Assembly: GCA_028713225.1 (NCBI GenBank)
Contig: JAQTOS010000005.1
Coordinates: 62,001-126,000 of the forward strand
Direction of reading: 5' to 3'
Source of the DNA: Candidatus Altimarinota bacterium
Lineage (GTDB): Bacteria > Patescibacteriota > Gracilibacteria > BD1-5 > UBA6164
Length of the DNA: 64,000 nucleotides
Part shown: piece by piece, positions 11,310 to 25,693 of the stretch
How positions within the stretch are numbered: position 1 is the stretch's first letter
Layout: each line of letters starts with the position of its first letter
Made by a program: the position numbers and the translations under genes
Notes under the pieces: generated by a model
Told to the model about the DNA's origin: nothing
What the model saw: only the letters and a program-made list of their open reading frames with translations
The model's database searches: none

Positions 11310-11520
11310 TGTTATTATTATTTATTAAGTAATCTTGGGAGCATTATCAATTATTTTAGTAAAAAGTAAAGAAAAATATAATTTTTTAATTAATAAATAT
11401 AATTTCTAAAATAAATTTCAAATTTGTAAAGAAAAATTATAACTTTTTGCTGTAAATTTTTGCATTTGAAAAAATATTATGATAAAATGAGCAGGAAGTT
11501 ATCTTATAAACACAAGAAAT

Positions 11521-14500
11521 ATGAGAAAAATATTTAAGAAAATATTGTCGTTAATGGTTATTTTAAGCCTTTTTGGAAACTACCTAGTTTCTTTTTGAGC
11601 GGCAGCCGATGACCAAAATAATAAATGAATTTCAGGTTATACTACTCTTAGAGAAGTAGATAAATGAACTTTTAATGAATATAGATATAGACTGACTCAA
11701 CAGTTTTTTAACCTTAAATCAAAATTTGATGTTAATGGTAATTTAGATTCATATACTTTAAATACTATAAAAAGTGTAGTAAATGCTTCTTATAATTTCC
11801 TTCCTTCAGATACTCTTAAAAATCAATTATATAAATCAAATTTATTAACAGCTATAGATAGAGGGATAAAATATCCAAATGATGATTCATCTTATGCTGC
11901 TTTGACAAAAGCTATGGGTGATTATATGGATAATGCTGATGTAAAAGCAATAACTTGATCTATTGAAGCTAGTCCTACTTCATGAAATGCTCCTTTAACT
12001 ACAAGCTTAAGATGAAGAGTGTCAGATCCTTCAGGAACAGAAATTCCATCTTATAATTATATTTGGTGGATTGATAAATGATGAAAAAGAGTTATTCTTG
12101 GTAGAAAACAATCACTTTCGTATGTTTTTAATGAAGAATGAAATTATAGTGTATTTTTAGATGTATCTTCAAGTCATAAAAATGTTAATTGAAATACTGA
12201 TGTACTTGGATTTTCATCTAGAGCAATTATAGAAGTAAAAGAAAAAGTAGCTTCTTTGATAATAAAAGTAAATAATACAAATCTTTGATCTAATGAATCA
12301 ATAAAATTTTCACCAGATGAATCTAGATATGGTTTAATTTTTGATGCAACTTCTTCTACTCCAACAGGTGGTGCTAAATTTGTAAGAACTACTTGGGATT
12401 TTGGTAATGGAATAAAAAAATCTTATACTTATGCTCCAAGAATGGAAAGAGTTGTTTATTATGGGGAATGAGAATATACAGTTAAATTAAATTTAACAAC
12501 AAATGAATGAAAAACAGTTGAAAAAAGTTTTGTAATACAAATTCATAAACCAGTTGCAACTATACAATCTGATAAAGATGAATGATACCAATGAGATAAA
12601 ATTACTTTTTCTGCTAGATCTAATATTGGTCAAAATAATATTACTTATGCTTGGAAAGTTATAGATATAGTATCTGATAAAGTAGTTTATGATAAAGAAT
12701 GAGCAACTTTTGCTTATACTTTTAACACAAAAGGTAAATTTAATGTACAACTTAGAACTGTAGATCCAGCATGAAATGAGGATGTAGATACTAAAATTAT
12801 ATATATAAATTCTAGAGCTCCAGTAGCTGATATTGCGACTTCAATTCCATATACAAATAAACCAAATTATGTACTTCTTGATGCTACAAAATCTTATGAT
12901 CCAGACTTTGTAGATGATGGAAAACTTAAATATACTTGGACTATTGATGGAGAAAAAGTACAACTAGAAAATCCAAATTATAATAGTTCAGTTGGTTACT
13001 ATACTTTTTCATCTAAATGAGACCATTCAATTGTTCTTGAAGTAGTAGACCCAGATGGAATAAATGATATTAAAAAATCAAAACTTACTATTGCGTCACT
13101 ACTTTCAGTTGATTTTGTTACATTCCCAAAAGTTCCTAGAACAAAAGGAGTTATTAAATTTATAGCTGATTCTAAAGATGCAAATTATTTTGAATGGGAT
13201 TTTGGTGATGGAAATAAAAATACATCAGTTTCAAATTCTATAACATATATTTATAGCAAAGCTTGAAGTTATAATATGACTTTGAAAGTTAAAAATGCTG
13301 AATGAGAAACAACTACATATACAAAATCAGTTTATGTTTGAAATGCAGATTCGCCAGTTGCTGATATAACAATAAATAATTGAGATGCCGAGTCTCCATC
13401 TCTAGTAGATGATGCTTGTTCTGGTCAGCCAGCTTATATTGTAGACAGAACATGACCTATTACTTTTGATGCTACTACTAGTATAAATGTTGATTGAAAT
13501 ACTTCAGGATTAACTTATTCATGGAAAATAGGATATGATAATAAATATTCTACTAAATCTTCTGTAACTCAAAAATTTGATGAACTTGGATGTTTCCCAG
13601 TAAAACTTACAGTTAAATGATTAGGTGGAAAATTAGCAACAAAACAAATTTGGGTGAGAGTAGATAATCTTGCTCCAACATTTAATTGACTTGATATAAC
13701 TACAAATGGTGATGATAAAGATCCAGTAATAGTTCAAGTCGCAGCACAAAACGCAAAAGATCCAGATGGTGTAGTACAATCATATTTATGGTATTATTAT
13801 ACAGATTCTGATTCTGAACCACAAGATTTTAGAATTACAAATACTCCAACTACTTCATTTGTTGTTCCAAAAGTAACAGGAACTTATTACTTTGTTCTTG
13901 TTATGAAAGATTCAAACGGGGCTAGAGTTAGTAGTGAAGATCCAATCAAAGATGATAATGGAAATACTATTGCCGGAAATAAATATTTTATAACTTTGGC
14001 TTCTGATAATGTAAATACTCCACTTATTGATTTCAAAGTTGATAATTCATCAGTTTGAATTTGATCGCCAGTTACATTTTCAGCATCAGTTAAAAATGTA
14101 CTTTGAGAAGATTTAACTTCAAAAGCTCAATATTCATTTGATTTTGATGGAGATGGTTTCTATGATGAAAAATCAACAGAACCTACTATTGTTCATAAAT
14201 TTGATACTTCTGGAGAATTTCATGTAAAAGTGAAAGCCATGTATAAATGAATAAGTAATACAAAAAGTATAACTGTTAATGTTGCAAATAGATTAGAATC
14301 AAATTTTGATTTTATATCTATTGGAAATAAATTTATATTTATTGATAAAAGTATAGGAAAAGTTGATTCTAGAAAATGGGATATGTGAGATGGAACTAGT
14401 ATTGATACAAAAGATTTATTTTCTTATGAATATGAAGATAATAAAACAATTCATAGAGTTTCTCTTCAAATATCAGAATGAACAAAAACTGATACAAAAA

Positions 14501-16764
14501 CAATTATAACAAAAAAAGATGTCAAAAATGAACTTCTTTTGAATAATGATTGAATAAATATTGTTTCATCACCTGCTTATAATAAAGATGATTCTAGTGT
14601 AGAAATTCCAGAAAAAGATACTCCATTTGTATTATATTTAGGAGCTTCGAAAGGAGATTTCAAATATTATTCTATAGATTTTGATACACGAGTTGATTCT
14701 GATTTAAATGGTACAAAAGATGATGATACAGATAATCTAAATACTGAAACTTATGAAAATGGAGCTCCTATAAAAGTAACATTGAATGACAATAAAACTC
14801 AAAATATAAAAGTTTCATTACTTGATGCTAATAAAAAAGTTGTTTCTAGTCAAGAAATCAAAGTTACAAAAGATTATATAAAAGAAGAAAATATTGACTT
14901 AGATTCTCTATCTTTTTCTTGAGTTACTGATGCTCAAAGAGCTCAAATAGAAACCCTTAAAGATTATGTAAAAAAACTTCCACAAGAATCTAGATTAAAA
15001 GCTATGAAATATGTTGAAGCTCTACAATCAGCTTGGTTTGATGATAGAGAAAAAACACAAGTTATACTAGATTTTGAAAGATATATAAATGGAATCACTT
15101 TTACTGATAAGGATAATGTTATAAATTTGCTAGAATCTTTTATAGTTGAAAATGATACTGATAAAAGTACTAGAAATATGGCACTTAAAGTAATACAAGG
15201 TTTAATTCCTAAAGATGATCCAAATTATAAAACTATAATGGATAAATTGGATTTATTAAAAACTTGAACAGCTGACCAAGAAACTGCTAAAAAGATTTGA
15301 TCAGAAATTCTAGATATTGTAAAAAATATTTCAGCTATTTCAAATGAAGATAAAGTTACGATAAAAGCTCAATTACAATATCTTATTTATGGAAATAATA
15401 TTCCTAAAGCGGTGGTAACAGAAGTTTCTAATGAATCAAATACTGGATCTACTATAGCAAATATTTTTAAAAATATAGTTTATATATTCCTAGCTTTTAT
15501 CGGATTACTTTTACTTGTTATTTTAGCTTTCTTTATCTATTACAAAATAGTTAATAAAGATCCAAACACGGCTTTCCAAGATTTTATTATAGAAAAAACT
15601 TCTGGTTCAAAAGCAAAAGTTCCTGTTTCTGATGTTTTAGCTTGAATAGATGAAAGTATTTTTGATAATGTAAAAGAAGAAGAAAAGGAAGAAATGGAAG
15701 CAAAACAAGTTAGAGAAGAATCTAATTCTGAAACTACAAGTGAAGCTATTCCTGATTGGTTAGCTGGTACTATGAATTCTTTTTCAGATACTAGTTCAAA
15801 TAATGCTAGTTCAAGTTCTGAAATCAAAGAAGAATCTGTAGCTATTCAGGAAGAAAAAGTTCCTGATTGGCTAACTGGAAAAACAAATTCTTGAGTTTAT
15901 GTTCCACCTAAAATAGAAATTCCAGAAGAAAAGTATGAACTTGAAGAAGATACTTTTAGTTCAGAATCTAGTGATGTTTTAGAAGAAGAAAAAACAGAAA
16001 TTATTCCTGAAGAAATAAATGAAAAAGTAGAAGATGCGAATGTTCCTGATTGGTTATCAGGTGCTATAAAAGAAAGTCCAAAAAAAGAAGAAGCTCCAAA
16101 AAAAGAAAAACATGAATTCAAGGCAAAAGCAAAAGCTGCTCCAGTTGAATCAAGTATTCCAGATTGGTTAAAAGATTCTTTAAGTACAACTGAAACTAAA
16201 GAAGAAGTTGCTACAGAAATACAAGAAGAAAGTGTTGATGAAATTTTAGCAAAAGATATGGCAGAGGATGCAATTGTTTCTAAAAAAGATGAAACAAAAA
16301 TCCCAGATTGGTTATCTTGAAGCTTAAAAGAATCTCCATCAGAAGAAAAAATAGAAGAAACAAAATTACCAGATTGGTTGTCAGGTTCTATGGATAATGA
16401 AACTAAATCTGATAATAGTGAAACTTCTCTTGATGAAGATTTAATAGAATTTAACGAAGTTCCAACTACAACAGAAGCAAAATTACCAGATTGGTTAATG
16501 GAAAATGATTCTGACACAAGCAAAACTGAAGAAATTCCAGAAGAAGAATTAAAAGTTGTAGAAAGTGATGAAAATCCTTTCTCAAATCTTATCTTTGATA
16601 AAGAAGAAACTAAAGAAACAATTATTCCTAGTTGGGATGAAGTAGTTAAAAAAGAGCCAAAAGCTAAAAAAGAACATGCTCCAAAACCTACAAAAACAAC
16701 TGATAAAAAAACAACAACTCCTACTTTGAAGAAAAAAGCTCCAAAAGAAAAAGTTGAGGAATAA
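11521..16764 (+). CDS. Giant PKD-repeat surface protein with one membrane anchor and PDWL-repeat cytoplasmic tail
   Basis: 1747 residues. A signal peptide (MRKIFKKILSLMVILSLFG) precedes an extracellular region of about 1290 residues with several PKD/Ig-like units (for example YFEWDFGDGNKNT and TTWDFGNGIK). A strong transmembrane helix lies at about 1318-1342 (IVYIFLAFIGLLLLVILAFF). The 400-residue tail after it is acidic and low in complexity, with seven PDWL motifs at residues 1411, 1448, 1509, 1547, 1595, 1617 and 1656, usually [IVL]-P-D-W-L-[AST]-G, and a degenerate PSWDEV at 1703; it ends Lys/Pro-rich. PKD units mediate adhesion or extension in other surface proteins. The tail looks like a multivalent docking strand for a cytoplasmic partner. 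Many glycines are UGA. Confidence 0.85.
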
Positions 16765-23278: not shown

Positions 23279-25693
23279 ATGAGTCAATTAGTTCCGGAGA
23301 GCGATGTAGAAGAGGTTTATGATAAAAATACAGATAGCTGGATTACTAAATGAGGTCCTAAAAAACCAAATATTCAAGTCCATACAGAAATTGAATATTG
23401 AGAAATTACGAAACCTGAAATAAAAAATCCTAATTTTACTAAATTATGGGAATCTAGATTATCTACTTTAAAATCAGTGGAGACACTTTTGGATTTTGAT
23501 TCATCTTTACTAGATTCATTATCAAAAATTTCAAATTCTATTTTTCCTGTTTGAAAATGAGAGAAGAAAAAAATAGTTATTTCTTCTGATTTGTTATCAC
23601 ATATAAGTAAAAATATAGAAGTTGATATTCATAAATATATAAATAATTCAGAATTTAAAGAAAAAGCTTTAGAGGCTTTAAAATTATCATGAAATTATTG
23701 ATTTTTTATAGAGAGAACTGATATTGATGTTTTTACTGATAATGATGATGAATTTAATCAGTCTGAAATTTTCCCAGATTCAGATACTCGAAATATCAAA
23801 TTTAATTTGGTTTTACTTCCGATGAATTTGGATATAAATAAATGAGAAACTACTTATAAAAATGCAGGTATTAGTACTTATTATTTAGAATATATTTGCA
23901 ATAATTTACTTCATTTAGAAATTAAAGAAAAAAGATTTGATTTTGTAAGAGAAGTTTCAAGTAAAATAGATTTATCAAAATTATCAAATGTAGAATTATC
24001 AGAGTATTTTTCTTCAGGGAATTACCTAAATTTTATATTTGAAAAACTTATTAAAGAGATTTTTATCCTTTCTAATTGATATATAGATAAGGAAATTTCA
24101 ATATGAATTGCTTGATATATATTGAGATGAAATTTTGATATGGAATTTACTAATTTAAAAGATTTTTTTAATATTATCTCAAAAATAGTAAAGATTCCTT
24201 CATGAAATAATGAAATAATAGAAATAGATTTAGAAGATCTTAAAAAAATAATTGAATCAAAAAATATAAGTATACAAAAATATATATTAAACCCATTATT
24301 TAAACAAAAAATTAGAGAAACTTTAAAATTACCAAATAATTATTGACTTACAATTGATGAAGATAAGTCTAGAATTTTAATGATTCCTATTGATGATGGA
24401 GTAAAAAGATATTCTTGAATAGAAAAATCAAATGTAGAATTTATAATTTCAAATATTTTAAAGTTAGATACAAAAGATAAGAGAACATTATTTTTAAACA
24501 ATATCGTTTCATCTATTGATTTATCAAAATTTAGCGAAGAAGATTTAAATGCTAGATTTTCTTCATGAAATTATATAGGTTTTATATTTAATGAGCTTAT
24601 AAAATATATTTTTAATTATGCAAAAGGAAATTTAGATTTAGATATGGCAAAATCAGTAGCAGGAGCTTTATTTAGAGAAGATTTTAATTTTGTTAATTCT
24701 AATATAGCTTCTAATTTCAAGGAATCATTTTCATCTCAATTAGCTTTGAAATTGACAAGAGCTTATAGAATAGATGATGAATTAGGACAAAAATTTAGAA
24801 CTTCAGTTGATTCATTGGAAGATTTATTAAATAAAAATTTATGAGTATTACCAAATGATATAGAAGTTAATAATTTTCGTAAAAGTTTTTCAAATGATAT
24901 ATTTACAAATTTTTCAGAAAATATAAAAAATTCCTTTAAACTTGTATGAATAACTAATATTGATGAAAATATTATTAGATGATTATTTATATATGTAGTT
25001 CATAATTGAGATATAAAAAATCCTATGAAAAATTTTGTAGATTTAATTTTTTCTAAAATTCATACAAAACATAAAGAACTATCAAAATTATTTGCGTTTT
25101 TTAATTCTCAAGTAGTTCGAATATGAAATGAAAGATATAATTATGCAAATCTTGAATTTAGAGATATAGAATTTAACGATTGAGAATATAGTGTAGAAAA
25201 AATTTTCAATATAATAAGAGAAAAATTAGATAGGTATCATGATTTATGACCTAAAATAGCATCTGTATGAAGAGATTATAACGAACTAAATCGTTTCTTG
25301 GAATTAACAAATAAAAGCATAGATAAAACTAAAGAATATATATCAGAGCAAGAGAAGTCTTTGCTAGACTTAAATTCTTGATTAGAAGTTCTTAGAAAAA
25401 ATATTCCGACTTGAGTAATTGCAATTTTGAAAAAGAAAAAACATTTAGGAGAAATTTCTAAATTAGAACAAGCTAAAATAGAATTAGAAAATTCATTATC
25501 AAAAAAAAATAATAATTTAACTAAATTCATTGATGAGAAACAGTTATATTTATCTAGAATTTCAGCAGATACTTCAAGAGCTGAAGTAATGCAATTAGAA
25601 CAAGAAAAAAAGCTTTTGGAAGAGCAAATAGAAAGAATAAAAGAGGATTTCTCAAATAATCTATTTTACTGACTTAGACAAGACAAAAAATAA
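23279..25693 (+). CDS. Unrecognised 804-residue protein with internal duplication and C-terminal coiled coil
   Basis: 804 residues, no signal peptide or membrane segment, acidic N-terminus. Two stretches are clearly related: IDLSKLSNVELSEYFSSGNY before LNFIFEKLIKEI, and IDLSKFSEEDLNARFSSGNY before IGFIFNELIKYI, about 200 residues apart. The last 150 residues are a coiled coil (from about 670 on, rich in Glu, Lys, Leu, Gln). No enzyme motif is seen. It sits alone between ligA and the peptidase gene. A structural or scaffold role is an inference. Many UGA-Gly codons mark it as native. Confidence 0.75.

Follow-up and report, generated by a model that had tools for sequence, protein, structure and literature searches.

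A PKD surface protein of Gracilibacteria with repeated PDWL words in its disordered cytoplasmic tail, a probable docking motif

The PKD surface protein and its tail

The window, by which we mean the whole stretch of 64,000 nucleotides analysed here, carries on its forward strand the gene of a PKD surface protein (11479-16764; Table 1), a frame that is open under genetic code 25 only and in which 40 TGA codons are read as glycine. The genome, of 1.24 Mb, uses this code (TGA=Gly). Glycine TGA codons are heavily used in one family of the order (f1), and none to few occur in many orthologues from another (f2, including the genomes G026 and G028). The protein begins with an apparent signal peptide, which is followed by a PKD ectodomain, a single membrane helix and some 400 residues of acidic tail. 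Pfam matches to PF00801 and PF18911 (134.9 and 132.1 bits, respectively, above the Pfam cut-off; E 1e-39) in six to seven stretches identify the PKD domains, and the hydrophobic N-terminal signal, read from the sequence, together with the single C-terminal transmembrane segment marks the protein as exported and anchored in the membrane. The all-helical part of the ectodomain next to the membrane has no sequence relative in the PDB and no significant fold match in Foldseek (best E 0.7). Elsewhere on the forward strand of the window lie an 804-residue protein without any Pfam match (23279-25693) and a small two-helix T4SS_pilin protein (PF18895; 29083-29445). A T4SS_pilin module is fused to the N terminus of the PKD protein in f2 and in relatives from the class, which suggests that the small protein and the PKD protein of the window work together.

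Table 1. Positions in the window of the PKD surface protein gene, its parts and the motif copies of its tail.
Feature	Position	Strand	Remarks
PKD surface protein, open reading frame	11479..16764	+	1761 aa, code 25 (TGA=Gly), stop included, N-terminal signal peptide
Membrane-proximal all-helical ectodomain segment	14929..15435	+	AlphaFold2 helices, pLDDT about 80-90
Single transmembrane helix, aa 1333-1355	15475..15543	+	Hydropathy, position, long helix in model
Cytoplasmic acidic disordered tail	15544..16761	+	26% Asp/Glu; pLDDT <50 nearly throughout past the juxtamembrane helix
Conserved juxtamembrane motif NKDxNxGFQDFIIEKTSG	15553..15606	+	Short helix in model
Motif copy 1, IPDWLAG	15748..15768	+	
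Motif copy 2, VPDWLTG	15859..15879	+	
Motif copy 3, VPDWLSG	16042..16062	+	
Motif copy 4, IPDWLKD	16156..16176	+	
Motif copy 5, IPDWLSG	16300..16320	+	
Motif copy 6, LPDWLSG	16366..16386	+	
Motif copy 7, LPDWLME	16483..16503	+	
PSWDEV, degenerate copy or chance	16627..16644	+	Same place as the last conserved copy of other genera of the family, ELWDDGMKIPDWLK

With PKD domains that are exported and a single helix after them, the tail is placed inside the cell, be the signal cleaved or retained, and relatives with the added two-helix T4SS_pilin module at the N terminus keep the same membrane parity; the cytoplasmic location proposed in the initial annotation is thus borne out by topology. AlphaFold2, run on 25 orthologues, gave the tail pLDDT values of about 30-50, which predict disorder, and the motif is far better conserved than these disordered surroundings (pLDDT below 50), so that the earlier description of the words as short linear motifs in a disordered tail also holds.

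The seven-fold PDWL repeat reported in this acidic tail was recovered in full, with all seven [IVL]PDWL copies located at a median spacing of 52 residues. The places first given for the copies were right, and the residue numbers were 13-14 too low because another start codon had been taken; the longer pattern [IVL]PDWL[AST]G fits five of the seven, the exceptions being copies 4 (IPDWLKD) and 7 (LPDWLME). When this tail was shuffled 20,000 times, [IVL]PDWL occurred on average 0.0005 times per shuffle and never more than once. Within the window's genome the PDWL word is limited to one tail: the nucleotide pattern CCNGAYTGGYT has eight matches in the 1.24 Mb, seven of which are the tail copies, and the eighth (G000:C18:2577) encodes GDPDWLKK in the N-terminal region of an unrelated protein. 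A wider genome search for P-x-W-L, covering all but a few middle residues (such as Pro, Leu and Val), found no further in-frame [IVLM]P.W[LM].

Conservation in the order and distribution in the class

The PKD protein was matched in all 40 of the order's genomes that were searched, and so was the motif tail, save where contigs end ahead of it. Named relatives belong to Candidatus Gracilibacteria, such as bacterium 28_42_T64 (complete genome CP042461) and Ca. Altimarinus. The 29 C-terminal tails read from these 40 genomes contain 151 copies with the consensus [IVL]-P-[D/S]-W-L-K-G-S, in which Pro and Trp are present in 100% of the copies, Leu in 95%, Asp in 77%, Lys in 72% and Gly in 62%. In the relatives the consensus is PDWLKG, in place of the PDWL[AST]G first proposed. 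P[DS]W[LM] was observed 134 times against 0.09 expected from shuffled tails, and the tryptophans of the tails lie mostly inside motif copies. Complete tails have four to eight copies each, across about 30 genera and 40 named MAGs. In one genus of five species the linkers are almost unalignable, and 30 of 34 motif columns are invariant compared with 33 of 379 linker columns, so the motif survived the comparison with its linkers that had been proposed as a refutation test. A comparison of the window's species with its nearest relative shows 25 identical motif columns out of 49, a figure lowered by copies missing where the contig of the relative ends within the tail. In the window's genus Ala, Thr, Ser or Met mostly takes the place of the motif lysine, so that one side of the motif is looser there, a point against the docking reading discussed below.

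The copies are not equivalent. The last copy in f1 is extended (ELWDDGMKIPDWLK), ELWDDGM is conserved ahead of the last copy in one family, and one copy in f2 runs on into a conserved, helix-like stretch (PxWMxGVDxxSLxxEVEEEI, copy included), as read in the tails L022-L029 and in those of f1. Since individual copies have conserved extensions of their own, the sites along the tail probably form an ordered series.

The class contains homologous PKD proteins, and in other families of it the tails of single-pass PKD proteins carry one to three copies, which often close the chain (GPVPDWLKGV, GPIPDWLKN, GELPDWLK and KDIPEWLK are examples). Such a tail follows the C-terminal membrane helix of a PKD protein in f4, f7, f8, f12, f14 and f19. 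Among the families read, f13, f18, f22 and f23 either have chains that stop shortly past their final membrane helix or lack such a tail near the PKD genes, and a tail gene may lie elsewhere in these genomes. A nucleotide search for IPDWL/VPDWL in 380 genomes of the phylum gave single matches near chance, with counts close to the search's own control in most genomes; among the matches listed, close pairs were found in f7 genomes, where they are real tails, and in G242, outside the listed reading frames. A search with the whole tail in 287 phylum genomes returned the window's own protein and one marginal match only, and is insensitive, as the single-copy relatives were missed too. On the sequences compared, the motif belongs to the class as a whole, and this order is where it was multiplied. 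Single-copy docking may be ancestral, with multivalency as an expansion in this order. The multivalency originally claimed for the tail does not seem to be its central feature, since a single copy, often placed at the very C terminus, is what other families of the class have.

Probable docking and competing explanations

Because a seven-residue word is selectively retained in a disordered inner tail, we take PDWL to be, very probably, a site at which an inner partner docks. In our view the sequence data are best read as a docking motif, present in several copies, that a conserved cytoplasmic partner would bind, with a probability of roughly 0.68. The disordered cytoplasmic arm would display several copies of [IVL]-P-[DS]-W-L-[K/S]-G, a conserved cytoplasmic protein would bind their Pro-x-Trp-Leu core, and each PKD surface protein could then hold several partner molecules, or a single oligomeric or polymeric partner avidly, at the inner face of the membrane beneath the surface layer. 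We infer both that there is a protein partner and that multiple copies would serve avidity or clustering. That Pro, Asp and Lys are kept like Trp and Leu argues for more than a mere hydrophobic sticker. A self-association or membrane-touching role would be expected to leave much of the same conservation, which counts against the docking reading. Gene neighbourhood offered nothing constant as a partner (one family has SSB, LepB and TruB there, the next a further PKD protein), and the presence or absence of FtsA, SepF or PF06723 proteins did not separate motif-bearing from motif-lacking families.

FtsA is a candidate partner because the motif core resembles the FtsZ C-terminal peptide, which is bound by FtsA, ZipA and others. 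In the FtsZ-like explanation the tail copies would occupy the pocket of FtsA for this peptide (FtsA binding is reviewed in PMC5832921) and so tie the surface protein to the division ring. The motif fits the peptide's core phi-P-x-[F/Y/W]-[L/M/I] and shares with it the sequence of hydrophobic residue, Pro, any residue, aromatic residue, Leu and basic residue at the end of a disordered linker, in several families at the extreme C terminus as the last residues of the chain. Of 43 genomes, moreover, 42 contain FtsA and none contains SepF, and the actin-like model PF06723 matches only FtsA and an apparent DnaK in the window's genome (judged by length and position, its matches in most genomes are confined to DnaK, FtsA and PilM). 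The FtsZ peptides of the same genomes, on the other hand, always have Phe and Arg with Asp-x-Asp ahead and Lys behind, whereas the tail motif has Trp in place of Phe, Asp at +1 and Gly at +5, is flanked by neither Asp-x-Asp nor Lys-Lys, and occurs in several copies on a transmembrane surface protein. A basic residue follows Leu in about 77% of copies overall (Lys/Arg) but in only one of the seven in the window (Lys), and what comes next is Gly rather than a basic tail. FtsZ varies between Leu, Met and Ile across the class while the motif stays Leu, and some families have FtsA without a motif tail. With a different aromatic residue, different neighbours and no co-variation, mimicry of FtsZ is a minority reading that we consider unlikely. 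The window's genome also contains a second FtsZ C-terminal fragment (G000:C15:3676-3999; 57% identity), which sits where a 4 kb contig ends and is either a paralogue or contamination.

It is quite unlikely that the tail acts as a chain of stickers and spacers, whose Trp-Leu words would associate with one another or with the inner leaflet and cause clustering without a separate partner. Trp/Leu words set about 52 residues apart in an acidic disordered linker, at four to eight copies per tail in the order, are what such a chain would look like, but single-copy versions exist in other families, Gly is conserved along with Pro, Asp and Lys beyond Trp and Leu, and some copies have conserved extensions of their own (ELWDDGM; GVDxxSLxxEVEEE). 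A functionless expansion by slippage in a low-complexity tail is very improbable: the tails are long, variable and in some species partly repetitive, but the linkers diverge almost fully while the motif stays, the same word recurs across many families including as single copies, and the invariant columns of the five-species genus contradict it.

Known systems and what the tail may mean

The tail with its probable docking motif is a genuine and strongly conserved feature, and no description of it emerged from the searches. The initial observation holds, and its interpretation holds in part. An open-access library contained no paper with 'PDWL' and 'motif' together, in keeping with the initial annotation, which knew of no such system, and a literature search returned no binding or localisation data for this protein family. 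The suggested adhesion, PKD domains being generic, and the outside-in signalling are unsupported; like clustering and contact with a host, they are inferred from the domain type and the lifestyle.

Eukaryotic single-pass adhesion receptors of the integrin type combine ectodomains, one membrane helix and a multivalent inner tail with linear motifs, and cohesin-dockerin scaffolds are extracellular, with folded domains and repeated docking units on one chain. The PKD protein shares with the former its extracellular domains, single membrane helix and inner tail with linear motifs, a likeness of layout only, and has no homology to them; with the latter it shares repeated docking units on one chain, which here are seven-residue words in a disordered tail inside the cell. 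The comparison drawn earlier with integrins and dockerins thus stands for the layout, as an analogy only. Conserved tails with several copies of a linear motif are well known among the receptors of eukaryotes; in bacteria, to our knowledge, they have rarely been described. Large PKD membrane proteins have been reported from CPR bacteria such as Vampirococcus, whose PKD surface proteins resemble the present one in being large and membrane-bound, and the portions of the article drawn on here make no mention of a repeated inner motif for them (PMC8080830). Relatives that are likely Absconditabacteria-like (f13) have short tails without the motif.

Gracilibacteria are tiny and probably host-dependent bacteria. 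It is conceivable, though we hold it to be improbable, that the class-wide motif, amplified in one order, constitutes a bacterial docking code that couples the surface PKD protein to inner machinery that the cell cannot do without, such as the division apparatus via FtsA, and so physically links host contact and an inner process. The motif tail was present, contig ends apart, throughout the searched genomes of this order of genome-reduced bacteria, on a protein with a large surface part, and the identity of its partner, for which the motif offers a direct bait, would show to which inner process these presumed epibionts couple their surface.
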